Made by a program: the position numbers and the translations under genes. Positions 2,339-22,250 of a stretch of 45,401 nucleotides of DNA are shown one piece after another. Under the pieces are notes generated by a model. That model saw only the letters and a program-made list of their open reading frames with translations. It searched no databases and was not told where the DNA came from. The DNA is from Candidatus Oscillochloris fontis (lineage in GTDB: Bacteria > Chloroflexota > Chloroflexia > Chloroflexales > Chloroflexaceae). The stretch covers positions 1-45,401 of the forward strand of contig NZ_RYFD01000035.1 in the NCBI RefSeq assembly GCF_004138135.1. The letters are read 5' to 3'. The stretch's first letter is position 1; the number at the start of each line of letters is the position of its first letter.

Positions 2339-4177
2339 TTAGATCTCTTCCCCAAACTTGCCGCTGGTGCGTTCAAAGACCCAGTAGCCCGCAACGAGGA
2401 TGACGAGGGCGGTGATACCCACGCGCAACATACTGGAGAGCGCGGGTACTGCCGGGGTCGGGATCTGACCCACCGCTACCGCCGCCCCATAGATGGTCTC
2501 GCGGTAGAACTCGATCAGCGAGGCCATTGGGTTGAGCCAACGGACTAAGCGCACGCCCAAGCCATCACCGAAGTTGCTCAACGGGTAGATCACCGGGGTT
2601 AGGAAGAACCAGATGTTGATCACGATCCCCACCAGATGCACCACATCGCGGAAAAAGACCGCCACCGCACCCAAGAACATGGCGATCCCGGCTAAGAGTG
2701 CCGTCTGCATGATGATCAGCACCGGGAGATAGGTCACGCTCCAGGCCAGATTCAGGTAGCCCAGGCTGCTCCACTGCACATAGGCGATCACCAGGAACAT
2801 CATCGGTAGCGAGAGGATAAAATTGACGAGGCTGGAGAAGACGCTGACGAGTGGTAACACCTCACGCGGGAAATAGACCTTCTTGATCAGCGCGGCGTTA
2901 TCAATAATACTGCGCGTGCCACCAATGATCGCCTCGGCGGTGTAGTTCCAGGGCAGCAGCCCGACGATGATGAAGACCGGGAATTGGGCGATGCCCCCCG
3001 GCATCAACACGCTGAAGACGACCACATAGACCAGCATCATGCCCAGTGGGGCGAGTTGGGTCCACAGGTAGCCCAGGGCACTGCCCTTGTAGCGCGTGCG
3101 CATGTCACGCATGACGAGGTTGCGGATCAACTCGCGGTAGGCCCAGATCTCCTGTACCTTCTCGGTTAGGCGCGCCGTGCGATCCACGGCAACCCCGGCC
3201 ACCCCAAAGAGCAACCCGAACACGAGGGTCAGGCCGATCAGTTGCAGGGTGTAGCGTGGTTCGGGGGTGGTGGGCAGGCTGGCGGCCACGCGCTGCACCG
3301 ATCCGGGCTGATCAACCAGGAAGGTTGCGTCATGGGTGCGGAGCAGGTAGCGTAGCGCGGCGTCAACTGCGCGCATGCGCGCAATCTCGCGGTTGCGCTC
3401 GATCAGTTCGGTATTGACCTTGAGATCATTCGCTGCACAGGTGAGCAAAGCCGTCTCACGAGTGGGATCTTCGGCAGTACCGCACCAGGCATCGAGCGTC
3501 GCATTGCGCGTATTGATCGCAAAGCGCCACAGGTCGTAGCGCGATTCGAGGGCACGCGCAATATCGAGCAACTCCTCGCGGGGCATGTTCTCTAAGGCGC
3601 GTGGCTCGGAGAAGGGTTCCAGATCGCGGGACATCGGGAATGCCTGGGTGCGCACAATCTCGCGCAGCAACAGATCAAACTCGTTCAGGCTGAGGGCTTG
3701 CTGATCGAGTGCTAACCAGAGTTCCCAACCCAACATATTACGCAGGATCTCGCGCCCACCGGCAGCGCGAATCTGGCGCGCCAACTCGGCGGCCCCAGCG
3801 TTGGCCAACGTCTGCGCCTCCGCCGCCGTCGGGGCCACCCCGCGCACCAGCACCGTACCGGGCGTTTCGCCGGGGATGAAGGTGACATCAAAGGTGGGCA
3901 GTCCCAACCGTAGCTCACGCCGCGCCAGCGCATTCTGGCGCAGAGTCTCAGCCGCATCACTGATGGCAACGTCTAGCCCGGTACGCGCCGGCCCGACGAG
4001 GCTATAGATCCCGCCATAGCGCTGCATATCAAACTGAGTCTGGGCGGTGGCGTAGTAGATTTCGGGTTGGGAGAGAATGCGCGGCATGGCCACGGCTAAT
4101 GCTCCAACGAGTGTTAGGAGCATCCAGATCCAGTGGTAGGAGCGCAGGTTGCCAGCAATAGACTTCAGGCCGGTCAT
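2339..4177 (-). CDS. ABC-2 permease (Wzm-like) fused to a Wzz-like N-terminal domain
   Basis: A 612-residue membrane protein in two parts. Residues 345-612 are a standard polysaccharide-export permease: an amphipathic start (LIRNLVMRDMRTRYKGSALG) and about six membrane spans. Residues 1-335 are not usual for Wzm: one span at about 15-33, a 270-residue extracytoplasmic region with helical and coiled segments, then a Pro-rich stretch (LPTTPEPR, 301-308) leading into a second span at about 310-330. That two-span, proline-flanked topology is the hallmark of Wzz/polysaccharide co-polymerases that set chain length. Typical Wzm proteins have about 260 residues. I infer one polypeptide combining length control and export. 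The ATP-binding partner abuts downstream. Confidence 0.82.
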   Translation of the reverse strand: MTGLKSIAGNLRSYHWIWMLLTLVGALAVAMPRILSQPEIYYATAQTQFDMQRYGGIYSLVGPARTGLDVAISDAAETLRQNALARRELRLGLPTFDVTFIPGETPGTVLVRGVAPTAAEAQTLANAGAAELARQIRAAGGREILRNMLGWELWLALDQQALSLNEFDLLLREIVRTQAFPMSRDLEPFSEPRALENMPREELLDIARALESRYDLWRFAINTRNATLDAWCGTAEDPTRETALLTCAANDLKVNTELIERNREIARMRAVDAALRYLLRTHDATFLVDQPGSVQRVAASLPTTPEPRYTLQLIGLTLVFGLLFGVAGVAVDRTARLTEKVQEIWAYRELIRNLVMRDMRTRYKGSALGYLWTQLAPLGMMLVYVVVFSVLMPGGIAQFPVFIIVGLLPWNYTAEAIIGGTRSIIDNAALIKKVYFPREVLPLVSVFSSLVNFILSLPMMFLVIAYVQWSSLGYLNLAWSVTYLPVLIIMQTALLAGIAMFLGAVAVFFRDVVHLVGIVINIWFFLTPVIYPLSNFGDGLGVRLVRWLNPMASLIEFYRETIYGAAVAVGQIPTPAVPALSSMLRVGITALVILVAGYWVFERTSGKFGEEI

Positions 4178-4198
4178 AATGTTCCTATTAGCATCCCG

Positions 4199-4476
4199 AT
4201 TTTAACGCAAAGACGCTAAGGCGCAAAGCCTTTAACATAGACTCCAAAGTAACTGTTCACGATGGAGGTAAACGGATTGCCACTCTTACCCAAAATGACA
4301 GGTTGACGCCAAGGCGCGAAGACGCAAAGATCGCAAAGATTGGGGTTGGTTCCCCAATACCATGCGTTGCGTCTTGGCGTCTTGGCGTCTTTGCGTCAAA
4401 ATCTTGATGTTCGGGGCAGTGTGAATAGTTACGACTCCAATCAAACCCTCTGCGTCCTTGCGCCTTGGCGTCAAAA
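4199..4476. repeat. Older palindromic repeat interrupted by a family A element (315-bp gene-free gap)
   Basis: The gap 4178-4492 holds no gene. It contains two nested palindromic repeats. The outer arms are 4199-4230 (AACGCAAAGACGCTAAGGCG) and 4448-4476 (complementary, ...CCTTGGCGTCAAAA). Between them lies a separate complete family A element at 4248-4432. The simplest reading is that a mobile palindrome jumped into an older copy of the same kind. Confidence 0.7.
4248..4432. mobile_element. Family A MITE-like element, copy 1
   Basis: A 185-bp element starting near GTAACTGTTCAC (4249) and ending GTGAATAGTTAC (4432), which are inverted copies of each other. Inside are complementary arms of GACGCAAAG/CTTTGCGTC-type repeats. 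It is flanked by the direct repeat GACTCCAA at 4240-4247 and 4433-4440, an 8-bp target duplication. It has no coding capacity, so it must be moved by a transposase encoded elsewhere. Confidence 0.8.
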
Positions 4477-4492
4477 GTAAGGCTCCACATCT

Positions 4493-6247
4493 TCACCCTC
4501 CGATCTCCAGCGTCTGCCCCGCGCCCAGATCTACCTCTACGCGCTGGTCGCCAAGCTGGAGCGTCAGCCCCGGCAAGGCCAGATCACTCGGATTATGCAG
4601 ACGGTAGCGCCCCGCCCCCAACGCTTCAATCTGCACCTGGGCCACCGCGTGTTGCCACGCGGCGATCTCGCTGAAGGGGGCCACCCACACCGCCGGGTTT
4701 TCGGCGGCAGCCTGCACCACCCGCTCCCAGGCAGCGCGTTGCTCTGGGCTGATCACCTCTTCGGTGTGCGCCCAGATGTCAATCATGCCACCCTGCTCCA
4801 CCGCGCGCTCGATCTGTGCCAGTGCCAGATCGGCGCGTTCGGGCTGCAAGTAGAAGTCGGGGCAGGCCAGCATGCGCCCCTCGCGCCCCGGCAACCAGCG
4901 GCAGCGCGATTCAGCGACGAGACCCGCCGCGTCGAGCGCGAAGAGGTTGTACTGGGCCTGGTCGCTCAGCCGGGTGACGGCGCTGATCCCGGCTTGCTCC
5001 AACGCCTCCCAGGATCGCTCGCTCATCCCGGCGCTGCTGCTCCACGGGAAGGCCAGCGCCTGGGCTGCGGGCACACCCGCCTCGCCAGCGATCTGGTTCC
5101 AGGTGGCTAGATCGCTCTGCCAAGTGGCCGCGTCCACATAACCACCATAGAAGTGGCTAAAGGTATGGCTCTGGATCTCGTGGCCCGCCCCGCGCAGGAT
5201 CGGCACCAGATCGCCAAAGTACCACGCCGGATCGCTCTGCACCGTTCCGTATGGGTCATCGGCGAACCAGGGGGTGCTACGCCAACGCTCGGCCAGCCAG
5301 CCATGCTCCGGGGTGGCCCACGTAAAGGTGGGGTTATTCATGAACTGCCGCCGTTCCACATTCCCCATGAGGAAGTTGTAGCCGGTGGCAAAATAGGTCG
5401 CCCGCACATCATAGCGGGCAAAGATCTGCATGGTGGTGGTGACGCCCTCGCGCATGCGCAGCCCACGCGCCAGCGGGTCTTGGTCGAAGTTGGGGTCGCC
5501 GAGCGAGCGCGAATGCACCAACCCGCCCATGGCGGTCTCCCAATCGAAGCTGAAGGCAACCGCAGCGCGGCGACCGTTGGGCCACGCGGCGATCTGGGGT
5601 TGGAGCGGATCTTCCGCCGCCAGATCAGCCAGATCCTCCCCGCCACGTTGCAGGTGCATGGCATCCAGGTAGAGGCGATCATCCGAGGCGGCCTCGATAC
5701 GCACGCGCAGGCTACGTGCATCGGGGGGGGCAACGAAACTGGCTTGCAGCGCCGACCAGCCGCGCAGATCGGGTGTCCAGAGGCGTACCGGCTGCCAGAT
5801 GCTGGCCGCCTCGGCGGTGGGAGTGCCAGCGGCGTTGTACCACTCGAAGACCAAGCGGGCGCGGGTGGGCGAACTCAGCGGCGAGTCGGTCAGTGCGAAG
5901 CCGCTGAAACAGTAGCGTTGCCCCGGTTCAACCGGGGTGATCGGGGTTTGTACCGCGTTGGCGATGCCGATCAGTTGCAGCGCCCGGCCATCGCCATCGA
6001 GATCGAAGCCCGCACCATCCACCGCTGGGCCACGCAGTTGCACGCCACCGGCGGCGCGGCTCCATCCGGCGGGCATCCCCGCCACCTCACCGGGGCTTGC
6101 GAAATCGTGGTTGGGCAGCAACTCAGCGGCGAGGAGCGGCACGTAGGCACAGCGGGCGATCCGCTGTTGCGTGAAGATCAGCACCCCCAGCATTCCGACC
6201 AGGATCGAAACCAGGGCCGCGCTGATCAAGATTCGTTTGGAGAGCAT
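4493..6247 (-). CDS. Membrane-anchored polysaccharide deacetylase (NodB-like)
   Basis: A 584-residue protein with an N-terminal hydrophobic segment (about 5-27) that fits a signal anchor or signal peptide. Residues 40-215 are a beta-rich, possibly carbohydrate-binding domain. Residues 225-530 hold the NodB homology fold: AVAFSFDWE supplies the catalytic and metal aspartate, then RATYFATGYN, and SHTFSH supplies the HxxxH metal site. The C-terminal 50 residues look like a small beta domain. Family members remove N-acetyl groups from extracellular glycans. It follows the exporter in the same direction after a repeat-filled gap, so action on the exported glycan is plausible. The specific substrate cannot be read from sequence. 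Confidence 0.82.
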   Translation of the reverse strand: MLSKRILISAALVSILVGMLGVLIFTQQRIARCAYVPLLAAELLPNHDFASPGEVAGMPAGWSRAAGGVQLRGPAVDGAGFDLDGDGRALQLIGIANAVQTPITPVEPGQRYCFSGFALTDSPLSSPTRARLVFEWYNAAGTPTAEAASIWQPVRLWTPDLRGWSALQASFVAPPDARSLRVRIEAASDDRLYLDAMHLQRGGEDLADLAAEDPLQPQIAAWPNGRRAAVAFSFDWETAMGGLVHSRSLGDPNFDQDPLARGLRMREGVTTTMQIFARYDVRATYFATGYNFLMGNVERRQFMNNPTFTWATPEHGWLAERWRSTPWFADDPYGTVQSDPAWYFGDLVPILRGAGHEIQSHTFSHFYGGYVDAATWQSDLATWNQIAGEAGVPAAQALAFPWSSSAGMSERSWEALEQAGISAVTRLSDQAQYNLFALDAAGLVAESRCRWLPGREGRMLACPDFYLQPERADLALAQIERAVEQGGMIDIWAHTEEVISPEQRAAWERVVQAAAENPAVWVAPFSEIAAWQHAVAQVQIEALGAGRYRLHNPSDLALPGLTLQLGDQRVEVDLGAGQTLEIGG

Positions 6248-6331
6248 CAGTCGTTATGGTTACGCTTCTGAGAAGCTGGGTATCTTGTCAAGCGCCCCAT
6301 TGTATCATACTCAGCTTGTGCTTCTGCGTTA

Positions 6332-6410
6332 GGGCATGTACAAAGTCACCTCCGGTGAGGGTTCGGGGGCGGCGAAGTCGCACTCGAACATTTTTTCTGT
6401 GTTGTTTTGT
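6332..6410. repeat. Family B element, truncated copy (R1)
   Basis: The sequence starts GGGCATGTACAAAGTCACCT and runs through the hairpin-3 part (GGGGGCGGCGAAGTCGC, mutated) into the T-tract and the first arm of the central stem (TGTGTTGTTTTG). It then stops, with no second arm or hairpin 1. The break at about 6410 coincides with the start of transposase-like coding sequence. It lies in the 418-bp gap 6248-6665. Confidence 0.65.
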
Positions 6411-6617
6411 AACGACGAGGAACAACAAGGCGTGTTGCGCGACACTGTCGCCCTCTTGCCCCCAGCTGTGCGCGTGATCGTGTTGGCCAATAGTGTGATG
6501 ACCAACCTTCCTGCGACGTGGCAGACCTACCCTATCGGCAGTCGGCGCATGGGGATTGAGACCATTGATTTGTGTATAATTGACACCATCAAAAAGTGGC
6601 ACCCTTTGAGGGGGTGA
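6409..6617 (+). pseudogene. Probable transposase remnant
   Basis: A plus-strand reading of about 70 residues (LFCNDEEQQGVLRDTVALLP..., then VIVLANS, then LPATWQTYPIGSRRMGIET) has no start of its own and is not followed by a full protein. The order of a LLPPAVRVIVLANS strand and an R-R-M-x-IE segment resembles the middle and C-terminal parts of IS4-like DDE transposases, with the catalytic aspartate replaced and the intervening sequence deleted. The family call is from memory of motif style and is weak. The rest of the gap holds no recognisable gene, only a TATAAT at 6575-6580 and a 20-codon frame from 6623 with a good ribosome site. Confidence 0.35.
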
Positions 6618-6665
6618 GGATCATGACGCACGTGTCAAACAGATTTGTCCCTTCTGAAACCATGT

Positions 6666-7268
6666 CTAAGCACGGAATGTGGTGATGCGCTCAACACGAT
6701 GACGATGATGTGGGTAGCCTGCTTCATCTGGGCGACCTAGCGCAATCATCGCCGTAATCGTGGCATGAGCGGGCAGGTTGAGTAAGGTCTTAACCTCTTC
6801 ATGCATAAAACCAAGCATTGCAGAAGTTGCGTACCCCATGCTTTGTGCTGCCAATACCAAGAAACCGAGGGCAATGTTGGACTGCGCATTGGCCCAGTTG
6901 GCGCGTTCTTCGATACTCATCTTGGCAAAGTTCTGGCGCATCCCTTCAGCTCGACTGCGAACCTGCTCCTCACCCATCCCCGGATGAACGGTCTCCTCCG
7001 CATGAGCCAGCGCATCCTCCATATCGCTATAGATCACGATCAGCGCCGGTGCTGCGGTTACCTGTGCTTGATCATAGGCAACCACCCGCAACTGCTGCTG
7101 AAGTTCTGCATTCTGGATGACCACAAAGCGCCAGGGCTGAACATTCATCGAACTAGGTGCCAGACACGTGAGCCGCAGGATTTCGTGCAAGTCAGCTTCA
7201 CTGATCGGTTCTGAGGTATAGCGGCGAATACTGCGACGGGCTTCGATGGCGTTGGGAACGGTTAGCAT
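6666..7268 (-). CDS. Nitroreductase family protein (FMN-dependent)
   Basis: A 200-residue protein of normal length for the family. The opening AIEARRSIRRYTSEPISEAD is the classic nitroreductase start whose Arg residues bind the FMN phosphate. APSSMNVQPWRFVVI at about 37-51 is the conserved Ser/Asn/Gln/Pro/Trp segment, and IALGRPDE near the C-terminus is the usual closing motif. These homodimeric enzymes use NAD(P)H to reduce nitro groups, quinones or related compounds; the physiological substrate is unknown. It is a single gene, bordered downstream by the transposase remnant and upstream by a family A element. Confidence 0.9.
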   Translation of the reverse strand: MLTVPNAIEARRSIRRYTSEPISEADLHEILRLTCLAPSSMNVQPWRFVVIQNAELQQQLRVVAYDQAQVTAAPALIVIYSDMEDALAHAEETVHPGMGEEQVRSRAEGMRQNFAKMSIEERANWANAQSNIALGFLVLAAQSMGYATSAMLGFMHEEVKTLLNLPAHATITAMIALGRPDEAGYPHHRHRVERITTFRA

Positions 7269-15067: not shown

Positions 15068-15138
15068 GTAACAATTCAGCCTTCTCCTAGCGCCCAGATG
15101 TTGACGCAAAGACGCAAAGACGCAAAGACGCAAAGCTT
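15068..15138. repeat. Family A element, half copy
   Basis: GTAACAATTCAG resembles the family A end and is followed by TTGACGCAAAGACGCAAAG in four tandem 9-bp units. The second half and a target duplication are missing, so this is a decayed or truncated copy. Confidence 0.55.
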
Positions 15139-15179
15139 CCAATACAACATGCACAACCAATCACCCTTCACATAAATAA

Positions 15180-15295
15180 TATAAATCTGCGTAATCTGCG
15201 TAATCTGCGGACAAATCCGAAATATAATCTGCGTAATCTGCGTAATCTGCGGACAAATCCGAAATATAATCTGCGTAATCTGCGGACAAACCCAC
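15180..15295. repeat. Tandem AATCTGCGT repeats
   Basis: The 9-bp unit AATCTGCGT is repeated and interrupted by GGACAAATCCGAAATAT, giving a larger period of about 45 bp repeated roughly two and a half times. The same 9-mer occurs in reverse orientation around 30023-30062 and 30199-30212. Function unknown. Confidence 0.7.
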
Positions 15296-16582
15296 TTACC
15301 CCACCAACGCCGCCCGCGCCAACACCGGCAGATCAAGCACCTCACCCCGGCTAGTCCGCGTGAGATCAAAGACCGCCCGCAGCAACGCCTCATACGAACC
15401 ACTCATCTCGCGCTTACGCCGCCCCATCACCGTGCGCGCCACACGGATCATATTCTCGATCCGGTACTCGCGGAAGATCTCGCCACCCCACGTAAAGGGC
15501 GGGATCGTCTTGGGCGCACTATGCACCCCAAAAATATTACTCGCCGTGCCGATCACCGTGCCACCATTCAGGTGCAAGCCAATCCCCAGTTTCACATGAT
15601 CAGCCAAGAAACAGCCCAACTTGATCAGTCCACTCTCCACCTGACCCAACCCGTCCAGCGCCACACGCACACTGCCATAATTATTCTTCAGATCGGAATT
15701 AGTAGTCATGGCCCCAATATTGACCCACTCACCCAGCCAGGAATGGCCCAGAAAGCCATCGTGGTGTTTGTTGGAGTACCCCTGAATGATACTCGCCTCC
15801 ACCTCGCCCCCGATGCGACAGACCGGGCCAATACTCGTTTCGCCCCGGATGCGGGCACTAGAAATCAGGGTCCCGGAACCAATATAAGTTGGCCCCTGAA
15901 TAAAGCTGAAGGGTTCAATATGCGCTCCAGCTTCAATACAGATCGGCCCATCGCGAGCATCGAGCACCAGCGGCCCATCGAGACGCGCCTCTGGCGCGAC
16001 GAAGACATCCGTGCCACGCACCACCACATGCGGATCATCGCCCTGGTAGCGCGGCAACCGCGCCTGGAGCAGCGGCAGATCGCGGATAATCTGCTCCCCC
16101 GACTGCGCAATCAGATCCCAGGGGTAGACGACGCGGGCGGGATGCTGGGCGGGCGCTAATTCCACCACCCGCGCAAAGCGCAGCAACTCATCACGGGCAT
16201 CGGCGGAGTATTGCGCCCGCAGATAGTAGAGCACCGCACTCGTCAGCGCAGGCGTGAGGCGCGCCCCAATCAGATCGCCCTCGGCCAGATAGATCGTATT
16301 GATCGGCTCTTGCAGTAGGCGCGGCAACCAAGCCAGATCGAGACAACGCCCATTGACCAGCACCGTCGGTTCGGCGCTATACATCGCCGCCAGACCCGTT
16401 GGCGGGCCAAAATGCCCCATCAGGTGTGGGCGTGCCAACCCCAGCACCTGATCATGCCCCAGCAACGCCGCCACCCGTTCGCGCACAGTATAGCCACCGC
16501 AGCGCAACTCAAAGAGTGGGCGAGCCTGGGCAATCGTGGCCAGATTGGGCCACATCTCATCTTCAAAGACGATCAGACTCAT
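15296..16582 (-). CDS. GlmU-like sugar nucleotidyl/acetyltransferase
   Basis: A 428-residue protein. The N-terminal about 190 residues open with MSLIVFEDEMWPNLATIAQA and a PLFELRCGGYTVRERV segment, a divergent pyrophosphorylase-like half seen in GlmU-like proteins of Bacteroidetes and Chloroflexi. Residues 205-370 are left-handed beta-helix repeats (IEAGAHIEPF, IGSGTLISSA, IGPVCRIGG) with a LNGGTVIGTASN turn, as in UDP-GlcNAc acetyltransferases. The classic GlmU nucleotide loop is not obvious, so the N-terminal activity is uncertain. It is the last gene of a four-gene operon behind two phosphohexomutases and a YvcK-like protein, which supports sugar-1-phosphate activation. Confidence 0.75.
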   Translation of the reverse strand: MSLIVFEDEMWPNLATIAQARPLFELRCGGYTVRERVAALLGHDQVLGLARPHLMGHFGPPTGLAAMYSAEPTVLVNGRCLDLAWLPRLLQEPINTIYLAEGDLIGARLTPALTSAVLYYLRAQYSADARDELLRFARVVELAPAQHPARVVYPWDLIAQSGEQIIRDLPLLQARLPRYQGDDPHVVVRGTDVFVAPEARLDGPLVLDARDGPICIEAGAHIEPFSFIQGPTYIGSGTLISSARIRGETSIGPVCRIGGEVEASIIQGYSNKHHDGFLGHSWLGEWVNIGAMTTNSDLKNNYGSVRVALDGLGQVESGLIKLGCFLADHVKLGIGLHLNGGTVIGTASNIFGVHSAPKTIPPFTWGGEIFREYRIENMIRVARTVMGRRKREMSGSYEALLRAVFDLTRTSRGEVLDLPVLARAALVG

Positions 16583-16586
16583 AAGC

Positions 16587-17786
16587 CTAGGTTCGCCGCA
16601 ACAACTCTAAAATCGTCGCCGTCAACTTCTCACCATCATGGCGCAACACCCGCACCGCCCGGCTCTGGTTGGGGTTCTCCAGCGTCGCCGTATACTGAAT
16701 GACCGACGACGAGAGATCAGCCTCAATCACCACACTCCCCTCGACGACCAAGCGCCGCTGACTATCACGATCCCCGGCCAGCACCGCCGTCTCCTCATAC
16801 TCTTCGGGCGAGAGATAGACCGGCGACTGATTCGCCGCCGCATAGAGCCGATGCACCTCTGAATCAATCCGCTGCGCATTCACCAACACATAGTCGGGGC
16901 TAAACCCAGCATACTGCTTGATCATCCGCAGATGATCGCCAACCCCAAAGCCGGTGGTGCGACCCGGTTCGGTCATCAGATTGCAGATATAGATCTTACG
17001 CGCCCGACTCTGAGCCACCGCTTGGCGAAACGCATCGAGCAACAGATTAGGTAAGACGCTCTCGAAGAGACTCCCCGGCCCCAGGATGATCGCATCCGCA
17101 TCGCGGATCGTCTCAGCCACCACTCGTGGTAGTGGCATAGCGGCGGCAGCGGGGTCGCGCAGTATCAGGCGTTCCACATGGCGCTCGGCCAAGGCCGGAT
17201 TCAAGGCCACATGACGCACATCCACCTGCTGGCCATCGTCCAATTCAGCCAAGACATCCAACGGCGTCGGGGTGGGCACCACATAATAGACATTCTGAAA
17301 GTTGAACAGCCCCGCAGCGCGGTAGTAATACTCAACCGGATCATGGATCGGCACAATACAGGTCATCTTCTCGACATGCGACCCCAGACTGGCCAATACC
17401 AACATCCCCGCTCCACCCGAAAGCACCACCACCTGTGGCGGTTTGCCCGCCTGTTGGAACCCAACCACCAACTCACCATCGGGGCTTTGGGTATGCTCAT
17501 CCACCGGGATGACCACCAACTCACTCAACTTCCACAAGCCATACCCAAGCACCCCCAACCCAAACACCAGCAACAGGATGCCACGCCACAAGCGCGGGAT
17601 GAACTGGAGAGTAAGGAAACTAAAGACCGGCGGCAAGCCCTCCATCGTGCGGTAGGCATGAATGAAGAGATACGCCACCCCCAGCGAGAGCAGCACAATC
17701 CCCACAAAGGTGAGCGCTAAAGGGGCCGTGAGATAGACAAGACGCCCAAGGCGTCGGCTAATCATTCGCATCAGAGAGTACCGCAC
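16587..17786 (-). CDS. YvcK/CofD-like protein with two N-terminal membrane spans
   Basis: A 399-residue protein. Two membrane spans lie at about 16-44 and 66-90. The rest follows the YvcK/CofD fold: VVLSGGAGMLVL as the nucleotide-binding start, then ADAIILGPGSLFESVLPNLL and KIYICNLMTEPGRTTGFGVG, both very close to YvcK. YvcK proteins bind UDP-GlcNAc and control the flow of carbon into cell wall precursors. The usual DDGGSSG loop is replaced by IHDPVEYYYR, and the membrane anchor is unusual. Its place between phosphohexomutases and a GlmU-like gene fits a regulator of amino-sugar supply. Confidence 0.78.
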   Translation of the reverse strand: MRYSLMRMISRRLGRLVYLTAPLALTFVGIVLLSLGVAYLFIHAYRTMEGLPPVFSFLTLQFIPRLWRGILLLVFGLGVLGYGLWKLSELVVIPVDEHTQSPDGELVVGFQQAGKPPQVVVLSGGAGMLVLASLGSHVEKMTCIVPIHDPVEYYYRAAGLFNFQNVYYVVPTPTPLDVLAELDDGQQVDVRHVALNPALAERHVERLILRDPAAAAMPLPRVVAETIRDADAIILGPGSLFESVLPNLLLDAFRQAVAQSRARKIYICNLMTEPGRTTGFGVGDHLRMIKQYAGFSPDYVLVNAQRIDSEVHRLYAAANQSPVYLSPEEYEETAVLAGDRDSQRRLVVEGSVVIEADLSSSVIQYTATLENPNQSRAVRVLRHDGEKLTATILELLRRT

Positions 17787-18920
17787 CTACTTGAGTTGAT
17801 CACGCTGCGCATCGAGCAGGGTGCGCAAGCTCCCCCCACTCCGCGCCACCATCTCGGCCACCAGTAACCCTGCCAGCAGCGCGTCAGGGTAAGCGGCGAA
17901 ACGCCCGATGCTGATCTCACCATCACGATTGACGCCCAAAAGCAGACCGGGGCGATCCTGGGCCAGCAACTTAGCCATTCGTGCATCGGTATCCATCGTC
18001 AACTCAAGCTTGATGCTATTTGCATCCTCCCAAGCAGCCAAGCGTGTCGCATTAAAGGGCGAATCACTCGCAGACGGAGGAAGCAATACCAGCCCTTTGT
18101 GGCGATGTTGGCGCACCAAATAACTACTCAGCAGCAAAGCGACATCAATGAGGCTCAACTGCTCACCACTCTTATCAATCACCGCCAGAGCCGTTCCATC
18201 CGCCGAGATGGCCAAACCCAAATGCGAATCACTCTCACGCACCAACTTCTTGAGTCGCAACAAACCCGACTCACCGGGGTGCGGCGTCACTTTCGCGAAG
18301 TGGGGGTCAGGCTCGCGATTAATCTCAATCGCCCGTGTCTGCCCACCTTCCCCTAACAGCGATGTCCAAGCTCCCGCCGTCGTCCCATGCATCGAATCGA
18401 CAAAGATCGTCATCGAGACCCGGCGGATAAGATCGAGATCCACCACCCCACGCAGCGTCTCAAGGTACCCAGCGCGCAGATCGGGCAGATTAGGCGGCAG
18501 CGGAGCAGGATCGATCAGGGGCGTAAAAGCAGATTGCGGTTGGTCATCAGCCATCCCCAGCGTAATGCCGGGCGGCGGCGTGATCAGCACCAAACCATTA
18601 TAATAGTAGGGGCGTTTACGTGCGGTAACAACGAGCGCACAATCAGCCATTCGGCGTTCAAGCGCCGCATAGACCGCCGGAATAGGCGTAGGGCAAGCCG
18701 CCAAATGCGCATTAACCCCGCGTGCCAGCAGATCGGCATGCAGTGCGCGCGCAAAGAGATTGCCCATAAAGCGCGTATCATAGGCAACCATACACGTCCA
18801 ACCACGCGAAGCCAAACCCGCAGCAATCATCGCCCCACGGCGCCGCACCTGATCCAGCGTAAAATCAGCAGCGTAGACCGCTTCCCACGTATAATCGAGC
18901 GAACGGTAGTGCGGGTTCAT
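17787..18920 (-). CDS. Phosphohexomutase-like protein lacking catalytic residues
   Basis: A 377-residue paralogue of the enzyme encoded next door. The domain order of alpha-D-phosphohexomutases is recognisable (AYDTRFMGN at 47-55, PTPIPAVYAAL at 78-88, HPGESGLLRL further on). The active-site loop TASHNP is TARKRP here (99-104), which removes the phosphoserine, and the metal loop DGDGDR is replaced by SADGTALAV. The substrate-binding C-terminal domain is also missing (377 against about 450 residues). I infer a non-catalytic, perhaps regulatory, partner. It overlaps the canonical gene by 4 nt and abuts the YvcK-like gene. Confidence 0.8.
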   Translation of the reverse strand: MNPHYRSLDYTWEAVYAADFTLDQVRRRGAMIAAGLASRGWTCMVAYDTRFMGNLFARALHADLLARGVNAHLAACPTPIPAVYAALERRMADCALVVTARKRPYYYNGLVLITPPPGITLGMADDQPQSAFTPLIDPAPLPPNLPDLRAGYLETLRGVVDLDLIRRVSMTIFVDSMHGTTAGAWTSLLGEGGQTRAIEINREPDPHFAKVTPHPGESGLLRLKKLVRESDSHLGLAISADGTALAVIDKSGEQLSLIDVALLLSSYLVRQHRHKGLVLLPPSASDSPFNATRLAAWEDANSIKLELTMDTDARMAKLLAQDRPGLLLGVNRDGEISIGRFAAYPDALLAGLLVAEMVARSGGSLRTLLDAQRDQLK

Positions 18921-20296
18921 AATTGGTTGCGGAACTCCTCTACCGCCGACAACATCATGGCACGAATCTCACATGCACGATCCATGGTCAATGCCTCAAA
19001 ACGGGTAGTGATGGCTGGCTCAGTATTAGAGGCCCGTACCAACCCCCAACCATCACCAAAATCCACCCGCACGCCATCAATAGACACCACTGGATAGTGC
19101 GGAGCGAAGCGCGCATACAGATAATCGATCACCCGAAACTTCTGCTCCTCGGCAAAGGCGATCCGCCCCTCATCTATTGAAGATCGATCCGGGTAGGGCG
19201 CCAACACCTCGCGTAAGGTGGTGCCCATCTGAGCCAGCGCGAAGAGCAGGTGCGCACCAGCAAAGACGCCATCATCAAAATAGTGGCCGGGGTAGGTGGC
19301 AAACGTATGCCCACTCAAATCGGCACCCAACACCGCGTTCAGTTCGCGCATCTTGGCCGAGATGCTAGGGTAGCCGGTCTTCCACATCACTGGAATGCCG
19401 CCCAGTGCGGTAATCGCTTCGGGCAATACCACACTACATCGCACATCAAAGATCACATGGCCGGAGCGCTGCCCTAAGAGGTAGGTCGCAAGTGCAATCA
19501 GGTAGCGGTCGGCAAAGACAATCTGGCCCTGGTTATCCACCACCCCCAGGCGATCACCATCACCATCCAGGCCAATCCCAATATCCGCGCCATGCTCGCG
19601 CACCGCCGCAATCAGATGTTGCAGATTCTCCGCCTTGAGCGGATCGGGATGATGGTTGGGGAAGGTGCCATCAGGCTCAATAAAGAGCGGCACCACATCC
19701 AACCCCAGCGCCTGATAGGTACGCAGGCCAATCGGGCCACCTACCCCATTGCCCGCATCGAGGACAACCTTGGGGCGACGCCCTTGGAAGGGTAAGAGCC
19801 GACAGACCGAGGCCACATAGGCATCACTCACATCCACCCGGCTGAGCGTCCCCTGGCCTTGGGCGAACTGACCGGCCAGCGCCACCTGACCCACCTCCTG
19901 CACATCCTCGCTGGTGAGCGGTTCGCTGCCAAAAGCTACCCGGCCACGGCGTAACTTCAGTCCGTTATAGGCGGGCGGATTGTGGCTCGCCGAGACAATC
20001 GCCCCCGCATCTAGGTTCAGGTGTTCAACCGCAAAATACATCACCGGCGTTGGCACTTGGCCAATATCCACCACATCCATACCGGTGGATTGCAAACCCG
20101 CGATCACTGCCGCCTGGAAGCGCGGTGAACTCAGGCGCGCATCACGCCCTACCGCTATAGTGCGCCGCCCCTGAGCCAAAAAGATCGTCCCAACCGCCTG
20201 ACCCAAGAGCCGGTAGATCGCCTCATCGAGATCAACATCAACAACGCCGCGAATGTCATAGGCGCGGAAGATGGTTGGATTGAGCGCCAGGGCCAT
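18917..20296 (-). CDS. Phosphomannomutase/phosphoglucomutase
   Basis: A 459-residue enzyme interconverting hexose-6-phosphate and hexose-1-phosphate. FRAYDIRG (10-17), VSASHNPPAYNGLK (101-114, phosphoserine Ser104), GLDGDGDRLGVVD (metal loop, near 238-250), a third-domain GHTFATYPGHYFDDG and the phosphate-binding RASNTEPAITTRFEA at the end are all intact. The protein is therefore expected to be active, unlike its neighbour. ManB/AlgC-like members supply GDP-mannose and UDP-glucose routes. First gene of the minus-strand operon reaching down to the GlmU-like gene. Confidence 0.92.
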   Translation of the reverse strand: MALALNPTIFRAYDIRGVVDVDLDEAIYRLLGQAVGTIFLAQGRRTIAVGRDARLSSPRFQAAVIAGLQSTGMDVVDIGQVPTPVMYFAVEHLNLDAGAIVSASHNPPAYNGLKLRRGRVAFGSEPLTSEDVQEVGQVALAGQFAQGQGTLSRVDVSDAYVASVCRLLPFQGRRPKVVLDAGNGVGGPIGLRTYQALGLDVVPLFIEPDGTFPNHHPDPLKAENLQHLIAAVREHGADIGIGLDGDGDRLGVVDNQGQIVFADRYLIALATYLLGQRSGHVIFDVRCSVVLPEAITALGGIPVMWKTGYPSISAKMRELNAVLGADLSGHTFATYPGHYFDDGVFAGAHLLFALAQMGTTLREVLAPYPDRSSIDEGRIAFAEEQKFRVIDYLYARFAPHYPVVSIDGVRVDFGDGWGLVRASNTEPAITTRFEALTMDRACEIRAMMLSAVEEFRNQL

Positions 20297-20741: not shown

Positions 20742-22250
20742 GTGAAGGTTACGACTGAGAAGCTTCCTAAGAGCCTATTGGCCTTAGAGATCGAGATTGA
20801 CCCGGATCAGGTCGAGCGTGGCTTAGACAAAGCCGCCCGCCGTCTCTCCCAGAAGTTCCCGATTCGCGGTTTCCGCCCTGGGAAGGCCCCGCGTTCAATC
20901 ATCGAGCGCTCCTATGGACGGGCCGCCCTCATGGAAGAGGCCACCGATGATCTGATCAACAAGGCATACCGTGACGCCCTCGAACAGGAGAAGATCGCTC
21001 CGGTCGGCCCACCCAACCTTGAATCGATCACTTCATCCGAACCGTTCATCTTCCGGGTCACGGTACCAGTTGCGCCAACCGTAACCCTCGGTGACTACCG
21101 TGGGATTCGTCTCGACCTCGAAGCGGCCAGCATCAGCGAAAAAGACATTGAGCGCGAACTTGAGCGCATGCGCGAGAAACATGTGGTGCTCAAGGAGCTA
21201 GATGAACTGCGTCCCGCCCAGGAGGGCGATCAGATCTCGGTGATCCTCGATACGGAATTTGAGGATGACGACGAGGAGGACGAGGAGGACGACGACGACC
21301 GTGACGACGACGAGGACGATGACCTCGAAGACGATGAAGACGATGCGGATGATCAGGACGATGAAGACGATGAAGACGATGCAGACGACGATGAAGAGAT
21401 CCAGACCCTGGATCTGATCCCCGGTCGTCTGGTTGAGGAACTGCACCAGGGTCTGATCGGCCTCAGCGTGAATGAGTACACCGAAATCACCGCCGTCATG
21501 CCCGATGATCATCAGGAAGAGTCGGTGCGCGGCAAGACCATCACCTTCAAGGTGAAACTGAAGGGCATTCGGGAGCGCATCCTGCCGGAGTGGGACGAGC
21601 TACCCGGCCTGGAGAACTTCGAGGGCAGTCTGGACGATCTACGGGCCAAGACCCAGAGCAATCTGGAGCAGACCGCCCGCACCAACGCCGAACGCACGTT
21701 GGTTGAGACCTATGTGAGCCAACTGGTCGAAATGACCGAGTTCGATATCCCCGATGTGATGGTGCAGGAACTGGCCCACGAAATGCTCCACGAGCAGGGG
21801 CACCAGTTCGAGCGCTACGGCATCACCCTAGAGCAGATGCTTGAGTACCGTGGCCAGACCCACGATGAGGCGGTTGAAGCACTCATGCCCGATGCCGAGC
21901 AGCGCACCAAGACCACCCTGGCGCTCAGCCGTTTGGTTGAGCACGAGGGGATTGGTGGGATCGTACCTGAGGATGTTGAGGCGCAAATCGAGCTCATCGC
22001 CAGCGATTACGATGAGGCGCAGCGCCCCAACGTGATCAATGCGTTGCGTACCCAGATGATCCATGATGTGGTCAATATGGTCATTGATCGCAAGCTACGC
22101 GCTCGCATCGTTGAGATTGCCACTGGTACGGCTCCCGCGCTTGAAGCCCCGGCTGCCGAGCCAACCGCAGAGGCTCCCGCGCTTGAAGCCCCGGCTGCCG
22201 AGCCAACCACAGAGGCTCCAGCCGAACCCACTACCACTGAAAAAGAGTAG
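20742..22250 (+). CDS. tig: Trigger factor with a long acidic insert
   Basis: A 502-residue ribosome-bound chaperone and prolyl isomerase starting at GTG, preceded by GATGGAGAG. The ribosome-binding loop GFRPGKAP is at 43-50. The PPIase domain begins near 150 but is interrupted at about 172-220 by nearly 50 residues that are almost all Asp and Glu, before LIPGRLVEELHQGLIGLS resumes the domain. The C-terminal chaperone arms follow. The tail holds a 14-residue unit (APALEAPAAEPTAE type) twice, encoded by a 42-bp tandem duplication at 22131-22172 and 22173-22214. Usual length is about 430-450 residues; the insert and tail explain the excess. First gene of the tig-clpP-clpX set. Confidence 0.96.
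   Translation: MKVTTEKLPKSLLALEIEIDPDQVERGLDKAARRLSQKFPIRGFRPGKAPRSIIERSYGRAALMEEATDDLINKAYRDALEQEKIAPVGPPNLESITSSEPFIFRVTVPVAPTVTLGDYRGIRLDLEAASISEKDIERELERMREKHVVLKELDELRPAQEGDQISVILDTEFEDDDEEDEEDDDDRDDDEDDDLEDDEDDADDQDDEDDEDDADDDEEIQTLDLIPGRLVEELHQGLIGLSVNEYTEITAVMPDDHQEESVRGKTITFKVKLKGIRERILPEWDELPGLENFEGSLDDLRAKTQSNLEQTARTNAERTLVETYVSQLVEMTEFDIPDVMVQELAHEMLHEQGHQFERYGITLEQMLEYRGQTHDEAVEALMPDAEQRTKTTLALSRLVEHEGIGGIVPEDVEAQIELIASDYDEAQRPNVINALRTQMIHDVVNMVIDRKLRARIVEIATGTAPALEAPAAEPTAEAPALEAPAAEPTTEAPAEPTTTEKE

Follow-up and report, generated by a model that had tools for sequence, protein, structure and literature searches.

A putative phosphohexomutase pseudoenzyme conserved between an active mutase and a YvcK/GlmR-like protein in Chloroflexaceae and Roseiflexaceae

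Why would a bacterium keep, directly behind the gene of an intact phosphohexomutase (PHM), a second PHM gene whose product has lost its catalytic residues? The question is raised by a 45,401-nucleotide (nt) stretch of Candidatus Oscillochloris fontis DNA (contig NZ_RYFD01000035.1, positions 1 to 45,401, hereafter the window; contig 120 of genome G000, a 4.46 Mb assembly that is 99.99% complete). Its minus strand carries, in this order, an active PHM gene (here called act), a gene for a 377-amino-acid (aa) protein, a YvcK/CofD-like gene and a gene for an alternative GlmU, followed by selA and a MobA-like gene. An initial annotation of the window had described the first two as adjacent paralogues overlapping by 4 nt, and had suggested that the inactive copy regulates the active one or senses a sugar phosphate. 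We see about an even chance that the 377-aa protein, a PHM pseudoenzyme, is retained for a role as protein-protein adaptor or regulator within this UDP-N-acetylglucosamine (UDP-GlcNAc) operon, which comprises mutase, pseudoenzyme, YvcK/GlmR and usually GlmU. The conservation of the pseudoenzyme can be read from the sequences, from which we infer the mechanism. The two open reading frames (ORFs), of 459 and 377 aa, do overlap by 4 nt, in an ATGA, and the elements in question are the following.

18917..20296, minus strand: act, active PHM of 459 aa with four domains, of the AlgC-type phosphomannomutase/phosphoglucomutase (PMM/PGM) kind (Pfam domains I-IV; P. aeruginosa PMM/PGM, 359 bits)
19976..19993, minus strand: catalytic serine loop SASHNP of act, residues 102-107 (sequence and alignment)
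19550..19567, minus strand: metal loop DGDGDR of act, residues 244-249 (sequence and alignment)
19307..19327, minus strand: sugar loop GADLSGH of act, residues 324-330 (alignment)
19016..19036, minus strand: phosphate loop RASNTEP of act, residues 421-427 (sequence and alignment)
18917..18920, minus strand: ATGA stop/start overlap (4 nt) of act and the pseudoenzyme gene (ORF coordinates, sequence)
17787..18920, minus strand: PHM pseudoenzyme of 377 aa, domains 1-3 only (Pfam, alignment, predicted fold)
18609..18626, minus strand: TARKRP in place of TASHNP, pseudoenzyme residues 99-104 (alignment)
18297..18326, minus strand: EINREPDPHF, pseudoenzyme residues 199-208, domain 2; E199-R202 invariant in the 27-row alignment A1
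18216..18257, minus strand: RLKKLVRESDSHLG, pseudoenzyme residues 222-235, the densest block of pseudoenzyme-specific conservation (column conservation)
18180..18206, minus strand: SADGTALAV in place of the DGDGDR metal loop, pseudoenzyme residues 239-247; the second metal ligand, Asp B, is kept (alignment)

As the initial annotation had stated, one copy, act, holds every catalytic motif, and its best solved relative, the P. aeruginosa PMM/PGM, together with these residues assigns it to the AlgC-type PMM/PGM enzymes. The other copy carries TARKRP and SADGTALAV and lacks the last domain, also as described; furthermore, we found neither a sugar-loop acid nor a phosphate loop in it. Pfam matches the 377-aa protein to PHM domains I (52 bits) and II (53 bits), both over the cut-off, with no match to domains III and IV at E 0.001. 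It has the fold of a PHM over domains 1-3, as detailed below, and lacks the hallmarks of a PHM enzyme, namely the phosphoserine loop, the three-Asp metal loop, the sugar-loop acid and domain 4.

We compared the active-site positions in a joint alignment that combined 41 pseudoenzyme orthologues with 39 act proteins and, from the nearest subfamily, 26 canonical PHMs. Before the count, the frameshifted L047, both halves of L046 (split by a run of N), four act fragments shorter than 400 aa and the long L156 were left out; L036 is cut at its start. Each of the following is present in 39/39 act proteins and 26/26 canonical PHMs: the catalytic Ser (pseudoenzymes, 2/41), the catalytic His of SHN (0/41), the metal ligands Asp A and Asp C (0/41 each), the Arg after the metal loop in DGDGDR (0/41), the Lys of NG.K (0/41), the sugar-loop acid at the aligned column (0/41; this loop is poorly conserved, so the choice of column depends on the alignment, and a few rows were inspected by eye), and the Arg and Ser of the phosphate loop (0/41), a loop absent in 41/41 pseudoenzymes. 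The two orthologues that keep the Ser, L015 and L039, are still without the His and two metal ligands, and the catalytic His-Asn is gone in all 41. Residues that contact the substrate are lost as well: K114 and R249 are found in 0/41, and R16 in 0/41 with one gap. Within act, the sugar-loop acid is Asp in this genome and Glu in 38/39 aligned orthologues. The initial annotation had proposed checking whether the substitutions are conserved in orthologues, and had named intact motifs there as evidence to the contrary; the substitutions are conserved across the 41 aligned sequences, and intact motifs were found in 0/41. Judged from these residues, mutase chemistry is very unlikely for every pseudoenzyme orthologue examined.

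For domains 1-3 the fold prediction is of good confidence. An AlphaFold2 model built from alignment A1 reached a predicted local distance difference test (pLDDT) score of 85 and a predicted template modelling (pTM) score of 0.88, and its residues 10-377 align with domains 1-3 of solved PHMs. The comparison with 1tuo gave Z 34.9, with a root-mean-square deviation of 3.0 over 343 residues; the GlmM chains of CdaA complexes gave Z 32.9-33.4 (B. subtilis GlmM, 33.4), and the solved PGM5 (6y8x) gave Z 31.7.

How widely is this protein kept? We searched 61 genomes of the order for orthologues, from the genome's own family Chloroflexaceae (f1), from Roseiflexaceae (f4) and from two further families (f2 and f3). 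Orthologues occur in 36/37 Chloroflexaceae genomes, two of them in pieces, the 86%-complete G026 being the one without, and in 7/9 Roseiflexaceae genomes, with G039 and G058 lacking one; no orthologue was found in the 15 genomes of f2 and f3 (0/15). In 400 genomes sampled from the phylum, intact orthologues scored 499-614 bits, against 312 for the N-split copy and 209 for the next protein, and the lower-scoring matches that we examined are other, canonical PHMs. Named relatives include Oscillochloris, Chloroploca, Viridilinea, Chloroflexus, Roseiflexus and Kouleothrix, and the four nearest, with 67-74% identity, are three Oscillochloris metagenome-assembled genomes (MAGs) and one Chloroflexales isolate. 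Two matches called for separate treatment: the cyanobacterial L113 carries canonical motifs and is an ordinary PHM outside the orthologue group, and L082, titled a Gracilibacteria MAG, contains the Chloroflexaceae operon and was taken as a mislabelled bin.

Nei-Gojobori ratios of nonsynonymous to synonymous substitution rates (dN/dS) are 0.060-0.177 for the pseudoenzyme gene (18 pairs, with the values rough in the four pairs where dS exceeds 1) and 0.046-0.155 for act (the 17 pairs having act), ratios by which the pseudoenzyme gene is under purifying selection. In the alignment, 69 columns are at least 95% conserved in the pseudoenzymes, and 23 of these hold a residue found in fewer than 30% of the act and of the canonical rows, with 11 of the 23 lying in domain 2. 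There the pseudoenzyme-specific R222, K225, L226, S230, D231, S232 and H233 adjoin the dead metal loop. The pattern is better explained by a new function than by decay, despite a rate of evolution faster than that of act (tree length 9.76 vs 5.91). Disruption of the gene in relatives, the other contrary finding named in the initial annotation, is not what the broken-looking copies represent. In Oscillochloris sp. ZM17-4 (L046/L110) the two good halves are separated by a run of N in the scaffold, and L047/L111 has a single frameshift in a MAG contig of coverage 3.4, likely a sequence error. A third irregular copy, the 807-aa L041/L105, is not counted as a natural pseudoenzyme-YvcK fusion: L102, from the same genus, shows by comparison that the reading frame shifts within roughly the final 20 codons and continues in that of yvcK. 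The contig has a coverage of 29.8, so this merged ORF may reflect a genuine recent change rather than an error.

Next we examined whether the pseudoenzyme arose from its neighbour. Two trees, of 57 and 55 PHMs, each unite the pseudoenzymes in one branch (support 100/100), which in the first tree stands beside the phylum's canonical PHMs of 470-490 aa and is cut off from act by a branch with support 99/98. A tandem duplication of the neighbouring mutase was rejected: on the second tree the approximately unbiased (AU) test excludes a clade of act plus pseudoenzymes (p 0.00129, log-likelihood 61 lower). These trees are to be read with long branches that meet, a midpoint root, and canonical rows chosen mostly by similarity to the pseudoenzyme. 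The nearest solved structure to the pseudoenzyme profile is 1tuo (108.6 bits), as it is for two canonical members of the clade; when the window sequence alone is the query, 1tuo comes third, 9du5 and 1wqa scoring 1-3 bits higher. Collectively, the trees, the AU test and the matches to solved structures place the two proteins in different PHM subfamilies, so that "paralogues" holds in the broad PHM sense and not in that of tandem duplicates.

The catalytic members of this subfamily have a distribution of their own. A search with one canonical subfamily enzyme found two close copies per genome in all seven f2/f3 genomes covered (364-1054 bits, counting the query's own), and the 46 f1/f4 genomes plus G063 yielded nothing above 154 bits, two of the 46 having no match at threshold. 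Catalytic subfamily members were thus not found in 46/46 genomes of the two families that carry the pseudoenzyme. We take the canonical clade beside the pseudoenzyme to be, probably, PGM_like2/cd05800, an assumption suggested only by the reported spread of cd05800. A member of cd05800, Slr1334, makes glucose-1,6-bisphosphate, and the cd03089 PMM/PGM enzymes are described as never accompanied by a cd05800 enzyme (PMC9426568). Separately, the L156 sequence (G421, 2485-5688) is a 1067-aa ORF with a canonical PHM in its C-terminal half.

The downstream genes in the window are these.

16587..17786, minus strand: YvcK/GlmR-like (CofD-like) protein of 399 aa, abutting the pseudoenzyme stop (CofD, 124 bits)
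15296..16582, minus strand: alternative GlmU, a UDP-GlcNAc diphosphorylase/acetyltransferase (TIGR03991, 399.6 bits, cut-off 225.3)

The YvcK-like protein scores 129 bits against TIGR01826, below the cut-off of 196. Ahead of its CofD part two hydrophobic N-terminal stretches were seen by eye, similar in L102 and L105, and the protein may be membrane-anchored.

Context was counted on 44 named loci, without L113. Upstream, the same strand carries act in 42/44, which is 42/43 of those examinable, since L098 starts at a contig edge; the 42 include L105, where pseudoenzyme and yvcK are one ORF, and some in which act is edge-cut or, in a MAG, frameshifted (L082, L095, L097, L109). The 4-nt overlap of the two genes is common to 24/44 loci. 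yvcK follows the pseudoenzyme gene in 42/42 examinable loci, the other two ending at contig ends, and of the 40 loci long enough to show it, 36 have glmU after yvcK, L091-L094 (from Chloroflexus and relatives) being without it there. In L077 (G015, a 97%-complete MAG, 5882-7161) the pseudoenzyme and YvcK are preceded by only ~31 act codons, beside frames that look greA- and lysS-like by eye. L099, L101, L108, L063 and L188, the last two from f4, carry right after glmU another weak YvcK relative, which is shorter (325-356 aa). We consider that the pseudoenzyme gene was probably added to an older act-yvcK-glmU trio within Chloroflexales, and that it was probably lost again once, as suggested by the weakly supported position of L063 among the f4 act proteins (80/83).

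What could an inactive PHM do in such a place? The retained fold, the loss of most ligand-binding residues, the conserved domain 2 block and the fixed place between mutase and YvcK point to a protein-protein role. We propose that the pseudoenzyme would bind the mutase (through the domain 1 surface that GlmM enzymes use to dimerise), YvcK, or both, by way of the domain 2 block, and would adjust the flux towards UDP-GlcNAc according to how much of it YvcK senses. Because the operon also holds YvcK and usually the alternative GlmU, its partner need not be the mutase. The putative complex may be sited at the membrane, given the two hydrophobic stretches of YvcK. In B. subtilis, GlmR (YvcK) is reported to stimulate GlmS at low UDP-GlcNAc (PMC7525490), and a glmR mutation renders a phosphoglucomutase essential (PMC6797236). 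The branch rates of the pseudoenzyme show partial correlations of 0.485 (act; p 0.0003), 0.418 (yvcK; p 0.002) and 0.088 (glmU), in an exploratory test that is weak evidence (six tests on 51 branches, operon genes only, from the window and 27/45 named loci, the other 18, among them L113 and L091-L094, having been excluded in advance because a gene was broken, absent, cut by an edge or had an odd start). A bolder scenario, possible though not probable in our estimate, is that a mutase of the glucose-1,6-bisphosphate synthase type, having shed domain 4 along with its ability to catalyse and to bind substrate, took the place of its catalytic kin in the Chloroflexaceae and the Roseiflexaceae and is now the physical link between the live mutase and YvcK/GlmR, so that a dead enzyme would set the flux of cell-wall precursor.

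Several observations weigh against an adaptor role. G039 and G058, of one f4 genus with genomes of 3.1-3.2 Mb, keep act-yvcK-glmU without the pseudoenzyme (L191, L188), and G063, from another class, has yvcK, glmU and act together without it (L187), hence the enzymes do not strictly need it. Conversely, the pseudoenzyme of MAG G015 stands without a full act, which a search elsewhere in that MAG did not find. The largest branch-rate partial correlation is that between yvcK and glmU (0.498), that between act and glmU reaching 0.426; operon neighbours share causes, and the test compared genes of the operon alone. Two active-site residues have stayed, namely Asp B of the metal loop (41/41 pseudoenzymes, 39/39 act, 26/26 canonical) and R54 (40/41, one gap). 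Finally, the pathway step itself, in which act is likely the phosphoglucosamine mutase producing glucosamine-1-phosphate (GlcN-1-P), is drawn from the operon only: the GlmM equivalog TIGR01455 has a cut-off of 447.55 bits that no PHM of the genome reaches (act 175.6, the other two intact PHMs 173.5 and 113.3), GlmS is present (776 bits), and act lies beside the alternative GlmU. A PF02878 search of the genome returned four proteins, which are act, the 377-aa protein, a 449-aa CpsG-like PMM and an 838-aa nucleotidyltransferase-PHM fusion.

Other functions were considered alongside the adaptor role. The pseudoenzyme could be an allosteric sensor whose old cleft still accommodates a sugar phosphate or bisphosphate and which passes the signal on to the active mutase, as the kept fold around the cleft, the retention of Asp B and R54, and herring PGM5, which is inactive yet binds glucose-1-phosphate (PMC7761743), would allow. 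PGM5, by contrast, keeps its binding site, whereas in the pseudoenzymes K114, R249, R16, the sugar-loop acid and the phosphate loop have all gone, and because the substrate-contacting residues were lost together with the catalytic ones, sensing through the old active site is unlikely. This part of the initial annotation is not supported; the other part, a selected non-catalytic role, is favoured by the conserved losses, the purifying selection and the pair being kept together. The pseudoenzyme might instead stand in for the missing GlmM by inhibiting the membrane diadenylate cyclase (DAC) CdaA, and thereby control cyclic di-AMP. B. subtilis GlmM without domain 4 still binds and inhibits CdaA via domain 2 (PMC8573169), and GlmM chains of CdaA complexes are among the closest folds to our model. 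The DAC protein of the genome has a hydrophobic N-terminus and adjoins a YbbR/CdaR-like gene (both by eye; L189, 2335-4750), with no PHM match in the 8.4 kb around it and no GlmM over the curated cut-off in the genome. The pseudoenzyme gene, on the other hand, sits with yvcK and glmU and not with the cyclase, and we consider this role slightly less likely again than sensing; the DAC protein occurs in 12/12 genomes tested, with or without the pseudoenzyme, and its presence does not track and is uninformative.

An enzymatic function of a new kind, with no relation to mutase chemistry, could be read into the newly conserved polar residues of domain 2 (R222, K225, S230, D231, S232, H233), but Pfam and NCBIfam at E 0.001 match PHM families only, and we rate this a little lower still. 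A decaying passenger gene on its way out would evolve faster than act and be absent from some genomes, as it is from G039 and G058. We nevertheless regard decay as very improbable, with dN/dS of 0.06-0.18, columns invariant across two families, and broken-looking copies that come down to N or likely sequence error.

The adaptor reading can be set beside known systems. Inactive relatives of enzymes are common, and the inactive PHM for which we found a description is vertebrate PGM5 (aciculin), which like the pseudoenzyme has a PHM fold without mutase activity and serves protein-protein roles. PGM5 is a close, vertebrate-limited relative of PGM1 that keeps the active site and substrate binding (PMC7761743; PMC5570346). 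Unlike it, the pseudoenzyme retains neither these sites nor domain 4, and it and its partner come from different subfamilies, so it does not class as PGM5-like. Its nearest solved relatives by profile, the 1tuo-type PHMs (T. thermophilus "putative phosphomannomutase"), differ in that their canonical members keep the catalytic residues (26/26) and four domains. GlmM-F369, the B. subtilis GlmM without domain 4, is a PHM of domains 1-3 that acts on a partner, CdaA, via domain 2, but it is an engineered truncation of a live enzyme (PMC8573169). The B. subtilis circuit of GlmR (YvcK), GlmS and YvcJ shares a YvcK-family member and the UDP-GlcNAc pathway with the locus described here, while the circuit as described in the available text has no PHM subunit (PMC7525490), its links to a PHM being genetic (PMC6797236).

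Inactive PHMs are already known in the form of PGM5; new here is a bacterial one, in which key residues are lost in all four active-site regions and which is kept across two families. We found no account of this family among the listed literature on PHM and phosphomannomutase pseudoenzymes, inactive bacterial phosphoglucomutases, the PHM superfamily and Chloroflexus phosphoglucosamine mutase, judged by title and with most subscription papers outside the scope. A pseudoenzyme in an operon for a peptidoglycan precursor, UDP-GlcNAc, would give a simple system for studying how a dead enzyme controls a pathway, and it could supply a missing piece of YvcK/GlmR action outside Firmicutes.

Two further features of the window were noted. 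Short repeats (ICPQITQI... in translation) are found at the end of the GlmU gene and past it, in the direction of selA (15076-15402). A 502-aa protein at 20742-22250, trigger-factor-like by eye, contains a long, nearly pure Asp/Glu run in its middle and alanine/proline/glutamate repeats at its C-terminus.

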